Shown piece after piece: positions 15,909 to 23,746 of a DNA stretch of 64,000 nucleotides. Under the pieces are notes generated by a model. It ran no database searches. It was given only the letters and a program-made list of their open reading frames with translations, and was not told where the DNA came from. The position numbers were made by a program, and so were the translations under genes. Every line of letters starts with the position of its first letter. Positions within the stretch are counted from its first letter, which is position 1. Origin of the DNA: Planctomycetota bacterium (lineage in GTDB: Bacteria > Planctomycetota > Planctomycetia > Pirellulales > Pirellulaceae); contig JAJDEH010000154.1 of NCBI GenBank assembly GCA_029259935.1, forward strand, positions 1-64,000, written 5' to 3'.

Positions 15909-16643
15909 TCACTCGAGATTCGGCGGGCGCAAGTCGCGCGGATCGACGGGCAGATGCTTGGCGTTGGTGTCGGCCCACATGGCCGCTTCGCCGTCGAGCG
16001 GGCTCTTGATGTTATACGCCTGATAACTGATCAATTCGCCGATTCGAATCACGAGATCGACCAGCCGTTCGGCCGCCGTCCAGTGATCGCCAACGCAGAT
16101 CATGGCCGGTTCGATGTTGGGATGAAAGATGGGCGTCAGCATGCGGCATTTGGGGCTTTGCCGGGGATAGTCGCGCGTCAGTTGAATCTCAACGACGTGC
16201 CCTTCACGATAGATCGGCTTGCCGTCCTGGCCTCGCGCCAATCCCCGCACGTTGTAAATAATTCGATACAGTTCCGGTGGATTCCCAACGGCTTGATGAA
16301 TTCGAATCAGCGGAAAGCTTTTGAAGGCGCTTCGGACGGTTTCCGCATCCGCGACAAGCCGGCGAGTTCGCGGCGGTAACTTGGGCTTCTTTTGCTTGGC
16401 GGGAACTGGCTGGGAGGGCGCCGCGACGGGCGAATCGACGTTACTCTTTCGCGTGGTGGTTGGCGTTGCCGGCGCGGAAGCTTCCGCCGGTTGGCGAAGT
16501 CTCTGAACGGTGCCGGCTCCCGCCGATGTCGCTCTTGGCACCAACAGCGATTTACCGCAACCTTTGCACTTGCCTTTGCGGCCCGCGAGATCATCGGCCA
16601 CGGAAAAAGTCTTGCCGCAGTTGTCGCAGTTAAACGTGATCAT
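15909..16643 (-). CDS. E2-like ubiquitin-conjugating enzyme (UBC fold) with zinc ribbon
   Basis: The 244-residue protein has an N-terminal zinc ribbon (Cys 6, 9, 26 and 29), a Pro/Ala/Lys-rich linker, then a UBC-like domain at about residues 95-230. The domain has YREGHVVEIQLTRDYP, then SPKCRMLTPIFHPNIEPAMICVG in two adjoining blocks. This is the classic E2 order: strand with Y-P, the HPN tripeptide (174-176) and the active-site Cys (C183) in MICVGDHW. After it come helices with WADTNAKHLPVD. In eukaryotic E2s this Cys carries the modifier as a thioester and HPN shapes the oxyanion hole. It is the last gene of the operon, 98 bases after the RING-like gene. The start used is the ATG at 16643; a TTG precedes it. 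Confidence 0.9.
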   Translation of the reverse strand: MITFNCDNCGKTFSVADDLAGRKGKCKGCGKSLLVPRATSAGAGTVQRLRQPAEASAPATPTTTRKSNVDSPVAAPSQPVPAKQKKPKLPPRTRRLVADAETVRSAFKSFPLIRIHQAVGNPPELYRIIYNVRGLARGQDGKPIYREGHVVEIQLTRDYPRQSPKCRMLTPIFHPNIEPAMICVGDHWTAAERLVDLVIRIGELISYQAYNIKSPLDGEAAMWADTNAKHLPVDPRDLRPPNLE

Positions 16644-16674
16644 CAAACCTCAACATCGGGGCTGTTAGTTTCAT

Positions 16675-16727
16675 TTGTGGTGCAGCCGTCCCGGCGGCAA
16701 TCGGCAGGCGAGACGCCTGCACCACAA
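16675..16727. repeat. Small palindromic element between the RING-like and E2 genes
   Basis: The 98-base gap between the RING-like gene and the E2 gene holds a palindrome. The outer arms are TGTGGTGCAG at 16676-16685 and CTGCACCACA at 16717-16726; an inner stem pairs GCAGGCG (16704-16710) with CGCCTGC (16714-16720). It has no T-tract, so it is not a typical terminator. It could act as an RNA stem that lowers or stabilises E2 expression, or be a small repeat of the genome that landed in the operon. Confidence 0.7.
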
Positions 16728-16741
16728 CTTTCTCTGTACAG

Positions 16742-17437
16742 TCAAACCATCCAATACAAGAGCGAGAGGCAGAACCCAAACAAGACTCCCAAAACCGAAA
16801 TAGCCGTGGCCGCCACGGGTACGGCCCAACCGATCTTGTGCGAGCGATTGACTCCCATGACGAGGGCCAAAACTCCCATCAACAGCGACGGGAACCCACA
16901 AGTCACAATACTAAACAAAGCCGCCAATGCACTAGCCGCCAAGACGACGTATTCCCACGGCACGTCGGCTTCCACCGGTCGTTGCTTGGTTCGCTGCAAC
17001 CGTTGTGGCGACCAGGTGCCGCCGGGCTGCATCGTCGGTCCGGGCTGCATCAGGGGACTGGCTTGCGGCGTGGTCGTGGGCGGACCCAGGCCTTGAATGC
17101 TGATATCCGGGCCCACCTTCAGCGCGTTGACATTCTTGCAACCATAGGCCGAGCAGCCGAGATTCTCCTGCCAACATTCGGAATGGAATGGCAAGCCGCA
17201 AGCCTGGCAGGCGGTTCTTTCGTCGTCGTCGTCGATCCCGGTTTGACAGACACTGCAGACTTCTTGGATTTCGACCGCGTTTTCGGTCGTGAAACTCTTT
17301 CCGGCCACGGTGGCCGGGTCGGGAATTTCCAACACCAGTTGGCACCGCTGGCACTGCCCCTTGCGGCCCACTTGCGAGGCGCGCGCGGTCAGCACGGCTC
17401 CACACTGGCAAGCGAATTGGAATTTCTCGTCGGACAT
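16742..17437 (-). CDS. RING-like zinc-finger membrane protein, candidate E3
   Basis: The 231-residue protein begins with a zinc ribbon (C10, C12, C29, C32) related to that of the E2. Residues 61-100 form a RING-type finger with ligands C61, C64, C77, C80, H85, C88, C95 and C100 (VCSVCQ, CQACGLPFHSECW, GCSAYGC). This matches the prokaryotic RING family proposed to act as E3 ligases. A Pro/Gln-rich linker leads to three membrane helices (about 162-179, 181-196, 203-229). It sits between the FHA gene (15 bases ahead) and E2 gene. I infer a membrane-bound E3 that recruits E2. Whether the finger is a true RING or a scaffold without ligase function cannot be settled from sequence. Confidence 0.83.
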   Translation of the reverse strand: MSDEKFQFACQCGAVLTARASQVGRKGQCQRCQLVLEIPDPATVAGKSFTTENAVEIQEVCSVCQTGIDDDDERTACQACGLPFHSECWQENLGCSAYGCKNVNALKVGPDISIQGLGPPTTTPQASPLMQPGPTMQPGGTWSPQRLQRTKQRPVEADVPWEYVVLAASALAALFSIVTCGFPSLLMGVLALVMGVNRSHKIGWAVPVAATAISVLGVLFGFCLSLLYWMV

Positions 17438-17452
17438 GTGTTTTGGCGAAGC

Positions 17453-18703
17453 CTACCGTTTCGCTCGTTCTTGAAACAGAAAGACCGTCCCGCCGATTTG
17501 AATGGAATCGCCGCTCTTGAGTCGCGTGCGCGATACCGGTTGGCCATTGACAAAAGTTGGCGATGACTCATCCAGGCTTTCGATCTCGAATCCACCGGGC
17601 CGCTTGTGAACGGCCGCGTGCCGTGGAGCGATGGCGGGATCCTTGAACAAGTAGATTTCACATTGGGGCGAACTGCCGATGTACGTCGGATTTTTATATA
17701 AGACGAATTGCTTGCCCGCGATTAAACCCACGGCCACCCGCAGCCAGCCCGATTTGGTGGCGGTTTCCAGCACGCCCGTTCCGATTCCCGTTACCATGCC
17801 GATCGCACAGATCGCCACGAAACGGCTGCCCACCGCGCTGTTGGTGGCTTCCGCGATGATGTCGAACAACATTCCACCCAGCGTCCCCCCAATAATTCCA
17901 CCAGCCAACCCAATGGCGAAACGCTTCCAGTTCTTCAGACTCACTCCCGGAGCAACCGCCAAACTGCCGCCGACCATCGACCAGGCGATCGTGCGCCAGA
18001 CCACCTGAGTAAAAAACGAGTCCTCGGGACTGCCAATGAGCGGTTCCACGATCAGGTTGAGAACGACGGTGGTGGCAATCGCGCCCACCGTGGCCCCAAC
18101 GACTCCGGCAGCGATTCCGATCGAACCCTTGATGATCACGCCACGCCAATTGCTGCTGACCAGATCCTCGGCAATAGACAGGCTGCCGCTGATCAAAATG
18201 CCGACCCAACCAAAAAGGAAAATAATTCCAATCAACCCGCTAATTCCATCTCGGGACAGTTGCTGGTCCATGGCTATCACGCGCTCGTCATCCGACAACG
18301 ATTCGTCCGCTTCAATCTGGAGGTACGGATTGCTTGAATAAGCCTGCCGCAGTTCCACGATTTGTCTTGCCGCTTCCTCGGACGTAATCTCTCCATTGTT
18401 CGCCTGCTCAATCAGTTGCTGCTCGGTCTGCCAGACATAATCGTAATTCTCTTGCGTACCGAAGAATATGAGAAACACCAGTTCCGCCACCAGCCACGCC
18501 AGCAGCCCGCCCACCAAGCCGAACAGGCCCATGTAGACCATGGTGTTGTACAGCAGTTGGCTCCAGTTAAAGCCGCCGATGGCCGTGCCCGACTGTTGTT
18601 CGTAATGGCTTTGCGCCCGATCGGTGGCTCCTTGCTGGCGCAACCGTTCATCAACCCGCGGGCTGTGGATCTCCTCGGAAGTGATGCGGATTTTGTTGCT
18701 CAT
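17453..18703 (-). CDS. Membrane protein with C-terminal FHA domain
   Basis: The 416-residue protein has an N-terminal cytosolic stretch, one or two helices at about residues 52-82, a charged segment, several further helices rich in Gly and Ala (about 150-310), and a C-terminal FHA domain at about 331-416. The FHA core is visible as YIGSSPQCEIYLF, then PRHAAVHKRPGGFEIE and SSPTFVNGQPV. FHA domains bind phosphothreonine peptides, commonly made by Hanks-type kinases, which planctomycetes have in number. It lies between the trypsin-like gene (49 bases) and the RING-like gene (15 bases). I infer a membrane scaffold that senses phosphorylation and connects it to the conjugation machinery. Confidence 0.88.
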   Translation of the reverse strand: MSNKIRITSEEIHSPRVDERLRQQGATDRAQSHYEQQSGTAIGGFNWSQLLYNTMVYMGLFGLVGGLLAWLVAELVFLIFFGTQENYDYVWQTEQQLIEQANNGEITSEEAARQIVELRQAYSSNPYLQIEADESLSDDERVIAMDQQLSRDGISGLIGIIFLFGWVGILISGSLSIAEDLVSSNWRGVIIKGSIGIAAGVVGATVGAIATTVVLNLIVEPLIGSPEDSFFTQVVWRTIAWSMVGGSLAVAPGVSLKNWKRFAIGLAGGIIGGTLGGMLFDIIAEATNSAVGSRFVAICAIGMVTGIGTGVLETATKSGWLRVAVGLIAGKQFVLYKNPTYIGSSPQCEIYLFKDPAIAPRHAAVHKRPGGFEIESLDESSPTFVNGQPVSRTRLKSGDSIQIGGTVFLFQERAKR

Positions 18704-18752
18704 GGTGGTCCGTCAAGCGATGCCGCGATTCCCGCGATTTGGCTTCGAAGGT

Positions 18753-19670
18753 TTATCTTTGCACGCGGGCCAACAGGTCGGAGACGTCTTGGAAATAAAC
18801 CCACTTTTCCCGGTCGAAGACCAGATCTGCCCGCACGGCGAAACCCAGCGACTGCGCCAGACTGGGATCAAAGACTTTCGTGTTGACGCCCACGACAAAG
18901 CCGTCTTGGTTCACCAGCGGGCCGCCACTATTCCCCCGGCTGATTGCCGCGCTGGTCTGCAACTCCATTCCGCGCCGCTTGGCCGACACAATGCCATTGG
19001 TGACGGTGAAGTCCAACCCCATGGGATGGCCGACCGCCACCACCGGCTCGCCCACGCGAACGTCGCTAAATCGACCGAGCGGCCCGAGGGTTTGCAGACC
19101 CGGCGCGTCCACTCGCACGAGCGCCAGATCCAACTCGTCGTCTTTCGTACGACCGACGATTTCACCGGGCACGCGATAACCGGCCCGAATCACGACCTGG
19201 CAATCGTCGGCGTCCGCAACGACGTGCAGGTTGGTCAAGATCAAATGGAGGTCGCCGCTGCTGGCGATCACAAAACCCGTTCCCAGCGCGGATTGATCGC
19301 ACTCCAGGCGGACCACGCTACGATTGGCGCGGGCGGCGATCTGTTCGACCCAGTCGCGTTCGGGCTCCTTGGTCAACCAAGCCAAACCCAGGGCGATACA
19401 TCCCGCGCAAGACAAGCCGGCAAGTAGAAAAGCCACGACGCGAAAAAACCCTCGCGCCGACGGCGGACCGTGCCGCCACCAAATCCAAGCATTCAAGAAC
19501 GGGACGAAGGTCATGACGATCCAGACGGCGACAGGCAGTCCCGACCCAGGAGCTTTCGTGCCGTGCGCGGGAGTCGCACTCTGCAGCGCTGGCGCGGCCG
19601 GCATGCTAGGCGGCTTGGGGCTTGCCAAGTCCTGGGGACGAATGACGATCTTGTTGGGTGGGTCATTCAT
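18753..19670 (-). CDS. Membrane-anchored trypsin-like serine protease
   Basis: Of 305 residues, the first 45 form a Pro/Ala-rich cytosolic-type tail. Two membrane helices follow (about 46-66 and 75-99), then a chymotrypsin-fold protease from about residue 108. The catalytic triad is visible: H149 (LTNLHVVAD), D181 (DELDLALV) and S248 (SRGNSGGPLV). No PDZ domain follows, unlike DegP/HtrA. The start at 19670 overlaps the end of the JAMM gene by eight bases, which supports it over the frame's upstream codons. With two helices, the protease probably faces the cytosolic side like the FHA domain, but this needs a topology test. It may degrade or process modified substrates. Confidence 0.88.
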   Translation of the reverse strand: MNDPPNKIVIRPQDLASPKPPSMPAAPALQSATPAHGTKAPGSGLPVAVWIVMTFVPFLNAWIWWRHGPPSARGFFRVVAFLLAGLSCAGCIALGLAWLTKEPERDWVEQIAARANRSVVRLECDQSALGTGFVIASSGDLHLILTNLHVVADADDCQVVIRAGYRVPGEIVGRTKDDELDLALVRVDAPGLQTLGPLGRFSDVRVGEPVVAVGHPMGLDFTVTNGIVSAKRRGMELQTSAAISRGNSGGPLVNQDGFVVGVNTKVFDPSLAQSLGFAVRADLVFDREKWVYFQDVSDLLARVQR

Positions 19671-20853
19671 CGGGTGACGAACTCGCTTCCCCTGGGTCGT
19701 CGTTCTCGTCGACCTCACTCTCGGATTTCTTTTCCTCCTTGGATTCACCGTCATTCGACTTTGGCTTATCGGGAGTTTTCGATTCGACCGGTTCGGTACC
19801 CTTGCCGGGAAACTCGCCGGTTGCCTTCGGCCGCGCCGATTCGTTTGCGGACGGCTGGACCTCCGCTTTACCGGACGGCTCTGGATCGGAGGTTTCTTTT
19901 TCCTGGTCGGGCGCGATCCTAGGCGGGTTCACGAGTACCCTGTTGGGCGCGCGGTGCTGCCTTTCGCCGCCCCATCCGGGAACTCGCGCGCCAAAATGTT
20001 CGATCAGCAGCGGAGCCATGAGCAACGTGACGGCCAAGCTGTAGAAAATTAGCAACGCGACAAAAACTGAAAGGAAGGATAGCCGTCGTTCAAGACGAGC
20101 GACTCGCGCGGCGGTTTCCTCGTCGTGGCCCATCGACGGTTCTATTTGCGGCGTTCCTGATTCGACGGTTCGCGCCGTGACCGAGAGTGCATCCGTCGAC
20201 ACGGGTCGCATTTCGCTAGGCGGCGTTGCCTCAATGGGCGGATCTTCCGGCACGTCGGGCTCGATCAGCAACCCATCACGGGTCGCCTTTCCCGATCGCC
20301 AAACAAACAGGCCTTCGTCTCCGCCCAGTGGATCGTAGACGAACGCCAATTGTTCGTCGGCGCTGAAGTAATTCTCGTGGATGAACAAATCCATGGCGGA
20401 CAAGAAGATGCCAAATCCCGGGTGCGTATGATACCAGCCCAAAATCCTTAGTTCAGGATACTTCTGGTCCAGTTCGCCATGAATGTGATTCCAAGTTTCG
20501 CCCGTGAACGTGACCTGCGCCGTTTGGCCGTCGGAGTGCTGGCCTTCAATGATCTGTTCGATATAAACAAAGGGGCCGCGTTCATCTCGGTACCCGTTCC
20601 CGATCATGACGCCGCAGATTTCCACGTCGGTGCGGGTTTGCCCGTGACGGTGGATGGCGTTGAGGACGGACTGCCTGACAACCACGCGCACGGAATTTTC
20701 ACGCCGTGCATCATCGGCGGGAAAGGATCGCTCGGGCCACTCGTTGGCGTCGACCAGGTCGATGTCCGGACCCGTACTCGGTTGCTGACCGGCAACAGGA
20801 TCCGATTCGTTCCGTTCAGATTCGGTTTGGTTTGTTTCAGTATCTTGGCTCAT
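19663..20853 (-). CDS. Membrane-anchored JAMM/JAB-domain metalloprotease, probable deconjugase
   Basis: The 396-residue protein has a JAB/MPN domain at about residues 53-200. The JAMM zinc motif is complete: E78 (DVEICG), H142 and H144 in HTHPGFGIF, S152 and D155 (LSAMD). Such enzymes cleave ubiquitin-like proteins from substrates or trim their C-termini. A membrane helix follows at about 258-285, then a disordered acidic, Pro/Ser/Lys-rich tail. The ATG at 20853 overlaps the E1 stop as ATGA. No E3 or Ubl domain is fused to it. I infer that it both processes the Ubl precursor and removes it from targets at the membrane. Confidence 0.93.
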   Translation of the reverse strand: MSQDTETNQTESERNESDPVAGQQPSTGPDIDLVDANEWPERSFPADDARRENSVRVVVRQSVLNAIHRHGQTRTDVEICGVMIGNGYRDERGPFVYIEQIIEGQHSDGQTAQVTFTGETWNHIHGELDQKYPELRILGWYHTHPGFGIFLSAMDLFIHENYFSADEQLAFVYDPLGGDEGLFVWRSGKATRDGLLIEPDVPEDPPIEATPPSEMRPVSTDALSVTARTVESGTPQIEPSMGHDEETAARVARLERRLSFLSVFVALLIFYSLAVTLLMAPLLIEHFGARVPGWGGERQHRAPNRVLVNPPRIAPDQEKETSDPEPSGKAEVQPSANESARPKATGEFPGKGTEPVESKTPDKPKSNDGESKEEKKSESEVDENDDPGEASSSPDE

Positions 20854-22070
20854 GACCACTCCAACTCATCTTCGCCGGCGACCAACGGTCCGAGGACTTC
20901 GGCGGCGTCGCCCGTTAGCTCGATCCCCACTCGACGCTCGGAGGTCTGCGCGATGATGATATCAAATGGCGGCACGCCGATGTCGCGCAATGTTCGGTCA
21001 AGGAAGGTCTCCGTTCCTCGAATCTTGAAAAACGTTTCCACGTCGCGACGAACTTGCCTGCACCGCGGACACCATGCCTTGTCGGCCGGTACTTTCCCCA
21101 GCGACGCGAACATCATTTCTTCATTGCCACATTGGCGGCAAACAAGTTTTTCAAGCACATCGCGGCCTAGTTCCAATTCCACCTCCGGACCTAGCATGGC
21201 TCGAGCCTGTTCCAGCACTCTTCTAATGCGCGTGTCGGCCTGTACGCCGTCCAACGTGATGATCTCTTCCAATGTATCGTGGCTGTAGCACTCTTCCTTT
21301 CGCTGATACTCAACGCCATAAGAATCACCGCCAAGCCCTTCAAAGAACCAACCGCGACCCGCCATCGTCGACATCCCGTGTACCAGTTTGACCGCCTCTT
21401 GGCATTGGACGCCGGCAATGATGCTGCTGATGGTGGGCGTGGTAGGGGTTTTGCCCGCTTCCATTTCTTCCCGGGATAACAAGTTGCACGATCTACGTCG
21501 TTCCAGCAATTTCCAATCGACCTCCGACATGGTGCATTCGTAACACGGGCCATCCGGGACGAACACACGAGCGCAGCCTTGAATCTGTTCGATGGCGCCA
21601 TCGATCCATGGACGATCAACTCGCCAACAATTGCGATTGATCGCCAAGCGGGCCTCGCGATTGTCCAAGCCGGCAATCACGACATCGGCCCAACGAAATA
21701 CCCCCAGTCCCAAGTCGTAGACGATGTTGCCCTTAAAATCTTGCACGCGCATTTCGGGGTAGATTTCGCGTGCCGCCCGCGCCGCGACTTCCGCTTTATA
21801 GCGCCCATTGTCGGCCGCCCGATAAAGGACGGATCGGGATAGATTGGAATTCTCAATTCGATCCAGGTCGGCGACGAGCAAATGGCCCACGCCCAGCAAG
21901 GCAAGATTCTTGACAATCTCATTCCCCAGCGCGCCCGCGCCGACGACGAGCACCTTGGTTTGCGAGAGCTTTTCTTGATCCCACCAACCAATCAAACGAA
22001 AGCGATGAAACCGGTCTTGTTGATCGGCATGAACTTCGTCCGACGAAACTCGTAGCGGCTGGTCATTCAT
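20850..22070 (-). CDS. E1-like (ThiF-fold) ubiquitin-activating enzyme
   Basis: The 406-residue protein has a ThiF-type adenylation domain: VVGAGALGNEIV (residues 42-53), ADLDRIENSNLSRSVLYR, and GLDNREARLAINR. A Cys pair in GPCYECT (C176, C179) is followed 16 residues later by C195 in RRRSCNLL. This matches the UBA3-type arrangement of zinc pair and catalytic Cys. Next come TPTTPTISSIIAGVQCQEAVK, and a zinc ribbon (C311, C314, C334, C337). The tail (about 344-400, RGTETFLDRTLRDIGVPP) could be a ubiquitin-fold domain that presents the E2. It activates the Ubl C-terminus with ATP. The ATG at 22070 overlaps the Ubl stop as ATGA. Confidence 0.93.
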   Translation of the reverse strand: MNDQPLRVSSDEVHADQQDRFHRFRLIGWWDQEKLSQTKVLVVGAGALGNEIVKNLALLGVGHLLVADLDRIENSNLSRSVLYRAADNGRYKAEVAARAAREIYPEMRVQDFKGNIVYDLGLGVFRWADVVIAGLDNREARLAINRNCWRVDRPWIDGAIEQIQGCARVFVPDGPCYECTMSEVDWKLLERRRSCNLLSREEMEAGKTPTTPTISSIIAGVQCQEAVKLVHGMSTMAGRGWFFEGLGGDSYGVEYQRKEECYSHDTLEEIITLDGVQADTRIRRVLEQARAMLGPEVELELGRDVLEKLVCRQCGNEEMMFASLGKVPADKAWCPRCRQVRRDVETFFKIRGTETFLDRTLRDIGVPPFDIIIAQTSERRVGIELTGDAAEVLGPLVAGEDELEWS

Positions 22071-22366
22071 TTGGGACCACGCGTCGTCGGTTTCGTCGCG
22101 CCGGCGGTGATCTCCGGCTGCAGTCGCAACACGTCGCCTTCTTGGCAGGCAACGTCCGTCAGACATTGCTCGTCCAGAAGTTGCCGACCCGAACGTTTGT
22201 GATGAAACTTGTAGCTCAGCGGCTGCCCATCGGGCCCTGTTTGGGGCAAGTTCATTTTCTCCAACAGCACGGCCAGAATTCGGTTCACCGCGGCATCGTC
22301 GGGCAATTCCACATCTTGGCGTTTGTTGCCCGTGGCATCCCAGACCTGAACTGTAATCATGGCCAT
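22067..22366 (-). CDS. Ubiquitin-like modifier (YukD-like beta-grasp protein)
   Basis: The 99-residue protein fits a beta-grasp fold: strand ITVQVWDA, turn, strand QDVELPDD, a helix (NRILAVLLEKM), then LSYKFHHK, RQLLDEQCLTD and DVLRLQP. This is close to YukD-type ubiquitin-like proteins. A GGAGA ribosome site lies nine bases ahead of the ATG at 22366. The product does not end in Gly-Gly: the tail after the fold reads EITAGATKPTTRGPK. It heads the operon and overlaps the E1 gene, so it is the modifier most likely used by this system. Trimming by the JAMM or trypsin-like protein would be needed to expose G89 or another residue, unless conjugation uses a different terminus. No type VII secretion genes are nearby. 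Confidence 0.86.
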   Translation of the reverse strand: MAMITVQVWDATGNKRQDVELPDDAAVNRILAVLLEKMNLPQTGPDGQPLSYKFHHKRSGRQLLDEQCLTDVACQEGDVLRLQPEITAGATKPTTRGPK

Positions 22367-22636
22367 CCGCGCATTTCTCCTAGCCTGCTGAGTGTCGTCT
22401 TCCCCCCCGTCAATTTAACGTGATGGAGATTCGCTGGCAAACGTCCGGCCAAGGGTCGCGGCCGCCGCCAGCCACCTTCTTACAACCGGAATAGGCCTAA
22501 AAAACAGAAGTACCCGATTACTTCTATTCGAGATTCACGGATTGATCCGATCTGACGTGTGGATGGGGTAGCAGCGTCCGTTACGATCTTGACGAAGTTG
22601 TAAGCACTCTTCGGGTCTGGATTGGGGTTCTCTATC

Positions 22637-23746
22637 GTGTCTAAACACAACCATCGTTGGAATTTGGCATTCGTACTGGGTCTTTCCTTTTTGGCCGTCA
22701 ACGCTGCTGTCGCGCAGGTGGTCGACTTTTCCGATCATTCCGCTAGTAGCGGCGAAGGCTCGGTGCAGTTCGCCAACTACGCGAATAGGCTGTCGGAATT
22801 CGAGGCCCGTTTGCAAGCAATGGAAAACTACCAGCCGCGCATTGCCTCGCTGGAAAGCGAAGTCCAGCGACTGCCCGCCCTCACTTACCAATCGCGGAGT
22901 TTCTTCTACGCCGGCTATGATCACGTCCTCGCCAAACCGTACTTCTCCAGAAACGTTGCCTTCTATGAAATGGCGACCCTCACATCCAATTTCACAAGTT
23001 TTGATTGGAGTACCCAATACACTCCGCGTTTTTATGTCGGATACGAAGCAGATAGTGGAACAGGAGTAAGGGTCGCTTACTGGCAGTTTGACGGGCAAGC
23101 CAAGTTCTTACGCACTCAGCAGCCCGGCGAACGACTGTTCATTGAAGTCAACGCCGCTGACGCCACGGTTAACAACGAAGTAGCAACGGCGGGTGCAACG
23201 GGTTCCTTGGTCGGAGGTCATTCCATCCAAGTGGACGTCTTGGATCTGGAACTCACGCGAAACGCCGAATTTGCGTGGGGGTGGCTTCGAGGCCAGGGCG
23301 GCGTCCGCTACGCGCGCTTGGAGCAATCCGCCTTGTGGCTGGAGACGGGTAGCCCCGACTTCGTGGCCTTGAATTACGACTTCGAGGGCATTGGGCCGAC
23401 CGTCATGGTCGAAGCGGGCGTGCCGCTGTTCGGGTCCAATCTGTCCGCGTTCGCAAACATGCGTGGCTCTCTGCTTTTTGGCAATCGATCGATTACGACG
23501 CGTGACCTAGTGGGCGGCGATACGATTCCTTCCTACGATTCGCTGCAGTCGGCGATCGAGGGCCAAGTGGGGTTGGATTGGGCGACCACTGTGTTTGGCC
23601 ACCCGCTGACGGTAAGGGCTGCCATGGAAGCTCAGACATGGTTCCGCGGCGGTGCGGCTTCGGGCGGCGATGACGAAGGCATTCCCGTCGATCAGATCGA
23701 CATGGGGTTCTTCGGGGCGGCATTTACGACGATATTGGAACTGTAA
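22637..23746 (+). CDS. Lpg1974-type pore-forming outer-membrane protein
   Basis: This protein of about 369 residues has a cleavable signal peptide (LAFVLGLSFLAVNAAVAQ), a coiled-coil-like stretch (NRLSEFEARLQAMENYQPR), then a region of alternating beta strands typical of an outer-membrane barrel: FFYAGYDHVLAKPYF, YTPRFYVGYEADSGTGVRV, and MGFFGAAFTTILEL at the C-terminus. Members of the Lpg1974 family are described as pore-forming major outer-membrane proteins and are numerous in planctomycetes. The GTG at 22637 is chosen because it leads straight into the signal; a TTG at 22622 is possible. It is divergent from the ubiquitin-like operon, so the 270 bases between must hold promoters for both. 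Confidence 0.82.
   Translation: MSKHNHRWNLAFVLGLSFLAVNAAVAQVVDFSDHSASSGEGSVQFANYANRLSEFEARLQAMENYQPRIASLESEVQRLPALTYQSRSFFYAGYDHVLAKPYFSRNVAFYEMATLTSNFTSFDWSTQYTPRFYVGYEADSGTGVRVAYWQFDGQAKFLRTQQPGERLFIEVNAADATVNNEVATAGATGSLVGGHSIQVDVLDLELTRNAEFAWGWLRGQGGVRYARLEQSALWLETGSPDFVALNYDFEGIGPTVMVEAGVPLFGSNLSAFANMRGSLLFGNRSITTRDLVGGDTIPSYDSLQSAIEGQVGLDWATTVFGHPLTVRAAMEAQTWFRGGAASGGDDEGIPVDQIDMGFFGAAFTTILEL

Follow-up and report, generated by a model that had tools for sequence, protein, structure and literature searches.

The stretch analysed here, the first 64,000 nucleotides of contig JAJDEH010000154.1 of a Planctomycetota bacterium (hereafter the window), carries seven genes, running from position 22366 down to 15909, that we predict to tag membrane-near proteins with a ubiquitin-like protein (Ubl) through its residue Gly89, the JAMM protein of the set likely trimming the Ubl tail. 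We give this reading a probability of roughly 0.8. It is based on which genes are present and in what order, on conserved residues, on the pattern at the end of the Ubl, on gene fusions and on a confident model of the E1, and from these we infer the chemical steps and the substrates. All seven genes, and all coordinates given below unless otherwise stated, are on the minus strand. Their order is Ubl, E1, JAMM, trypsin-fold protease, FHA protein with transmembrane (TM) segments, RING-like protein and E2, the overlaps among the first four being 4, 4 and 8 bases, and four of the seven products (the JAMM, trypsin-like, FHA and RING proteins) have TM segments. A preliminary description of the locus had claimed this operon with its overlaps, and the positions of the open reading frames (ORFs) bear it out. 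The catalytic residues that it named are likewise present, in a numbering that fits ATG starts (HPN at 174-176 and C183 in the E2, C195 in the E1, and E78, H142, H144, S152 and D155 in the JAMM protein), as are its eight RING ligands (C61, C64, C77, C80, H85, C88, C95 and C100). The domain searches that it proposed return YukD, ThiF, JAB, Trypsin_2, FHA, Prok-RING_1 and UQ_con in Pfam, and the gene order is kept in distant relatives. Since that order recurs and no aligned set shows an exchange at these residues, the operon is more than a chance arrangement.

The Ubl gene (22067-22366) encodes a precursor of 99 residues of the YukD/beta-grasp family, which scores 41.9 bits against Pfam YukD (PF08817, cut-off 27) and is the slowest-changing gene of the operon in comparison with relatives. 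A protein search found 3028 homologues at E<=1e-3. The statistics given here rest on the best 120 of them, in which high identity is partly selected because only top-ranking matches are included, and 50 Ubls from fetched loci therefore served as an independent check of the Ubl ends. The conserved part of the protein is formed by residues 1-89, which are near-invariant up to ...PEITAG. Among the best 120 homologues, 119 reach PE-x-TAG and the remaining one PEISAG, so that Ala-Gly is found in 120/120; 38 of the 119 end right at the Gly, while 81 are tailed, the tails being at most 61 residues long and 76 of them distinct. The entropy is 0 bits at the final three conserved columns versus 3.1 to 3.8 bits in the next six. 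Ala-Gly is also kept in 47/50 Ubls of the fetched loci, including divergent subtypes with PEIVAG and near forms, TSTFVAG or NIDAG/NVDAG ends. The combination of an invariant end glycine with either nothing or a hypervariable tail behind it is that of ubiquitin-like precursors, and on sequence grounds the Ubl therefore looks likely to be a precursor trimmed to Gly89. Its mature C-terminus would then lie at the Ala88-Gly89 codons (22100-22105), and the 10-residue tail beyond them (ATKPTTRGPK, 22067-22099 with the stop codon) is predicted to be removed. This boundary between conserved end and variable tail had been missed by the preliminary description. The tail codons also run into the E1 start, with a 4-base overlap, and part of the tail may therefore serve translation coupling to E1.

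The E1 gene (20850-22070, ATG start) encodes a ThiF-type protein of 406 residues (Pfam ThiF, 174.8 bits). Its predicted catalytic, thioester-forming cysteine, Cys195 (codon 21486-21488), is invariant in 40/40 aligned E1s, that is, the window and 39/43 loci, L016, L059, L067 and L070 being left out. The predicted structure has a predicted local distance difference test score (pLDDT) of 89.4 and a predicted template modelling score (pTM) of 0.88, and a C-terminal domain with a zinc-ribbon insert (residues 269-396) is confidently modelled, as judged within the whole-protein model. In the E2 (15909-16643, ATG start) an N-terminal zinc ribbon and a linker precede the UBC domain (Pfam UQ_con, 42.3 bits), and the best sequence match in the PDB is 2r0j (E 2.3e-8). 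The H, P and N of its HPN motif and the predicted catalytic Cys183 (codon 16095-16097) are invariant in 33/33 aligned E2s, comprising the window and 32/40 others; L013, L016, L053, L059, L060, L067, L070 and L077 were excluded because they were long ORFs that overlap others, near-copies or not genuine E2s. The JAMM/JAB metalloprotease (19663-20853, ATG start; Pfam JAB, 49.5 bits) has a single TM segment, which follows the catalytic domain, and an intact motif of E and HxH(x7)SxxD, whose E, H, H, S and D are found in 42/42 sequences (the window and 41/44 others, chosen by length and score). A Ubl of the YukD family, named for type VII secretion, might instead carry sulfur, or serve as an adaptor without covalent attachment as in such secretion, with an E1 acting like ThiF/MoeB, and it is indeed the ThiF/MoeB models that score best against the E1 core, with MoeB and ThiF as the best VIA rows. 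We consider this very unlikely, as most systems have an adjoining E2 whose HPN and Cys are invariant, Ubl and E2 co-occur, and the extra C-terminal domain of the E1 lines up with eukaryotic E1 ends, including those of UBA1 and SAE2, reaching residues 385-388 in 14 of the 50 listed VIA rows. Moreover, among the seven operon proteins Pfam matched no secretion ATPase of the FtsK-like type, no WXG100 protein and no sulfur-transfer family.

Our survey of related loci also suggests that these genes belong together. A first scan of species genomes gave 19 loci, 18 of them titled planctomycete and one (L019) a weak match in which the profile detects no Ubl. The full order Ubl-E1-JAMM-(trypsin)-FHA-RING-E2 is found in 12/18 (L001, L002, L003, L005, L010-L016 and L018), and in L004, L006, L008 and L009 a contig end lies within 1 kb of the last operon gene. 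In a second survey, in which 392 planctomycete genomes were sampled, a Ubl match was found in 34 and an E2 domain in 35 (33 above the Pfam cut-off), the two occurring together in 28 genomes versus 3.0 expected, kinship being uncorrected. The E1, E2 and JAMM genes share one strand and lie within 9 kb in 26 of the 34 Ubl genomes. Among the other eight, contig ends truncate the loci of G065, G105 and G035, the E2 of G271 lies about 10 kb off on the same contig, and in G098 no JAMM match was found near the Ubl. Loci of the PEITAG type number 16 in 15 genomes and have the FHA protein in 16/16, the RING pattern in 15/16 and the trypsin-fold protease in 9/16. More distant subtypes have orders such as E1-Ubl-E2-JAMM or RING-E1-E2-Ubl-JAMM. 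Lignipirellula cremea, a relative that can be cultured, is among the species named for both an E2 and a Ubl match.

The RING gene (16742-17437) encodes a zinc ribbon, a prokaryotic RING-like finger (residues 58-101; 17135-17266) and C-terminal TM helices, and the membrane-anchored product is the predicted E3. The eight zinc ligands, in the cross-brace order C4HC3, are present in 52/52 aligned RING-like proteins (the window and 51 of 53 other matches, P0285 and P0287 being left out). The N-termini of the E2 and RING proteins are both a similar CxxC zinc ribbon, and operon proteins of the relatives have further ribbons of this type. In the pathway that we propose, the JAMM protein would cut the Ubl precursor after ...PEITAG, and Gly89 would be adenylated by the E1 and then passed to its Cys195. 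The C-terminal domain of the E1 would bring in the E2, and the Ubl would move to Cys183. The membrane-anchored RING-like protein would hold the loaded E2 while a substrate at the membrane receives the Ubl, and the JAMM protein could take it off again.

Several observations weigh against this reading. The first concern the RING-like protein, whose RING call is weak by Pfam score and by fold. Prok-RING_1 matches it at 30.2 bits, barely over the cut-off of 29.1, while in relatives the score is over the cut-off in three cases (31.8, 33.3 and 38.3 bits) and under it in two (L058, whose finger is fused to the protease, with 27.8, and L012 with 15.4). The predicted structure has a pLDDT of 83.1 and a pTM of 0.48, and the best Foldseek rows are PHD fingers, with no row at E 0.001. 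As the C4HC3 order also fits PHD fingers, and as no RING-pattern ORF was found nearby on the same strand in 12/14 loci of the E1-Ubl-E2-JAMM order (L063-L076), the protein might be a zinc-ribbon/PHD-like membrane adaptor without an E3 role, the E2 transferring the Ubl alone. We regard this as rather unlikely. The structure comparison rows for the finger include both RING and PHD, and residues 59-102 align with the RING of RNF165, whose structure was determined together with UbcH5b~Ub. A RING-pattern ORF lies within the operon in 15/16 loci of the PEITAG type, the sixteenth (L055) being truncated by a contig end, and the C4HC3 order has been published for prokaryotic RING domains (PMC11354881; this article and those cited below are drawn on in excerpt).

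Other objections to conjugation by the seven genes concern the Ubl and its partners. The eight ends that we read individually among the 50 locus Ubls have AG in five cases and not in three, L075 ending in AA, and L079 and L081 in neither AG nor AA. The Ubl of L075, a locus at the same place as L046, reads ...PEIIAA with a tail and lies beside an E2 and a JAMM gene; its end may be a terminal alanine as in some targets of type II CBASS (cyclic-oligonucleotide-based antiphage signalling system). The tail could also serve translation coupling to E1 only. The predicted Ubl end would have only one Gly, preceded by Ala, in place of Gly-Gly, but this is no bar, because an article on CBASS cites Atg8/LC3 together with its own Gly/Ala targets (PMC10097602). 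The YukD family (PF08817), to which YukD/EsaB of type VII secretion also belong, includes the Bacillus subtilis YukD, described in the excerpted report as not covalently conjugated and as located beside secretion genes (PMC1779556). Two loci of the first scan, L007 and L017, have a Ubl but no E1, JAMM or E2 despite at least 4 kb of following sequence; in L007 an FHA/TM gene directly follows the Ubl. None of E1, E2 and JAMM was found near the Ubl match in three of the 34 genomes of the second survey (G242, G022 and G136).

A reservation about the preliminary description comes from the FHA/TM protein (17453-18703), which has five TM segments by hydropathy and a C-terminal FHA domain (residues 341-404; Pfam FHA, 53.5 bits). 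Canonical FHA domains bind phosphothreonine through the arginine of a Gly-Arg motif. This arginine is absent from 29/29 FHA/TM proteins, which have Ser in 27 cases, Cys in L061 and Gly in L062, and phospho-reading by the window protein is therefore doubtful. It may be possible elsewhere in the family, as the FHA domains fused to RING proteins have IGR in five of the six inspected (L008, L010, L011, L012 and L014), the sixth, L005, having IGS. Of the eukaryote-like pathway at a membrane put forward in the preliminary description, the five core domains, the invariant residues, the conserved neighbourhood, the E1 end alignments and the TM segments thus hold up, whereas its two membrane signalling partners are not supported in that form: one lacks the FHA arginine, and the other, the trypsin gene, does not occur in every locus.

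The latter (18753-19670, ATG start) encodes an HtrA-like trypsin-fold protease with two N-terminal TM segments (Pfam Trypsin_2, 101.9 bits), and the triad H177, D209 and S276, in TTG-start numbering, is found in 11/11 sequences. The gene does not belong to the core of the operon, as it was found in only 2 of 12 complete operons in the first scan and in 9 of 16 loci of the PEITAG type in the second. In 7/10 trypsin ORFs (L050, L052, L054 and L056-L059) a RING-like finger lies N-terminal of the TM segments and the protease in one protein, several of the genomes being close kin and the Pfam scan having been made on one, L058; in the window, L001 and L002 the two parts are encoded separately. The fusions suggest that both parts may act together, and for this reason we take the trypsin-fold protease, in loci that have it, as the likely partner or output. 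For the role of the tag, we favour quality control of membrane proteins by way of this protease. A more speculative reading, which we rate as rather unlikely, would be a true thioester ubiquitin system at the planctomycete membrane in which the RING protein hands a slow-changing single-Gly modifier, matured from a precursor with a tail, to membrane proteins and so controls a trypsin-type membrane protease.

The main rival to quality control is anti-phage defence, in the manner of Bil or type II CBASS, in place of a housekeeping membrane system. Characterised bacterial E1/E2/JAMM operons defend against phage or have been proposed to do so (PMC10097602, PMC13373217), although Bub operons are, in the excerpted account, not shown to protect (PMC13373217). 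The patchy distribution of the Ubl, in 34/392 genomes, would fit defence, and PADLOC E1-E2 and JAB models match the E1 and JAMM proteins. However, PADLOC models match none of the Ubl, FHA, RING and E2 proteins at E<=0.1, Pfam finds no cGAS-like or nuclease gene among the seven, and more than half of the products have TM segments. The slow change of the Ubl would also be unlike what an arms race leads one to expect. We hold defence to be unlikely.

Further variation was seen among the related loci. Two different Ubl loci occur in one genome in G003 (L015 and L061) and in G065 (L051 and L074); the Ubls of G003 have 71% and 56% identity to the window Ubl, and parallel Ubl systems can thus coexist. 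L068 has doubled parts, with Ubl, E2, JAMM, E1, JAMM, E2 and RING in a row, and in L066 and L073 an ORF that by eye resembles a Ser/Thr protein kinase adjoins the E1-Ubl-E2-JAMM genes. An E2 above the Pfam cut-off without a Ubl match is found in G026, G052, G131, G162 and G181, where the Ubl may be too divergent or the E2 may belong to another system. In the window itself, the divergent upstream neighbour (22622-23746, plus strand) matches Legionella_OMP, an outer membrane protein, at 50 bits.

Burroughs, Iyer and Aravind reportedly predicted in 2011 prokaryotic operons of E1, E2, RING, JAB and YukD, with the YukD-like Ubl being conjugated. The window shares with this class the five core domains, Ubl, E1, E2, RING and JAB, on one strand, and planctomycetes are the phylum named in a passage of a 2014 article that cites Burroughs et al. 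2011 for planctomycete operons related to the archaeal one (PMC4197634). The nearest tested system is the operon of Candidatus Caldiarchaeum subterraneum, which likewise has a short-tailed pro-Ubl, JAMM, E1, E2 and small RING in one locus; in vitro, a propeptide of nine residues is cleaved off by its JAMM protein, after which the Ubl is conjugated through E1, E2 and RING (PMC5654768). That modifier ends in GG, in contrast to the single G after A predicted here, and the excerpted account mentions neither an FHA nor a trypsin-fold membrane gene (PMC5654768), both of which the window has; the TM segments of the JAMM and RING proteins of the window are a further difference. Bil (BilABCD) and Bub are likewise bacterial operons of Ubl, E1, E2 and protease. 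To our knowledge both are without a RING, and Bub uses oxyester chemistry. BilC exposes the C-terminal glycine of its Ubl, but BilB has a CEHH motif and BilA two Ub-like domains (PMC11354881), whereas the window E2 has HPN and Cys. No Glu/His at the CEHH spacing was found in the window E2 in the E2 alignment, and the Ubl is one domain, so that the features of Bil are lacking. Type II CBASS, with Cap2 and Cap3, has the E1, E2 and JAB domains in common with the window and a target that ends in a single Gly or Ala, but unlike the window it conjugates cGAS itself and, in the excerpted account, has no known E3 or Ubl (PMC10097602). Its E1 and E2 are joined in one protein, Cap2, and are separate genes here.

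The kind of operon described here is already known, because planctomycete operons related to the archaeal one are in print (PMC4197634); our analysis adds the -AG pattern of the precursor, the fusions of RING and trypsin and the absent FHA arginine. We found no experimental report on such planctomycete operons in the open-access literature, which omits most subscription papers. The prediction of 2011 is now directly testable, as specific residues can be named for the catalytic cysteines, for the cleavage site and for the glycine that is likely used in conjugation. If our reading is true, this bacterium would have a complete E1-E2-RING-JAMM system with HPN/Cys chemistry of the eukaryotic type, linked to the membrane and to a protease. 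If the tag also controls that protease, the result would be ubiquitin-directed proteolysis without the proteasome as partner, with the RING-protease fusions as a direct physical link, and this would bear on the origin of ubiquitin control over proteolysis.

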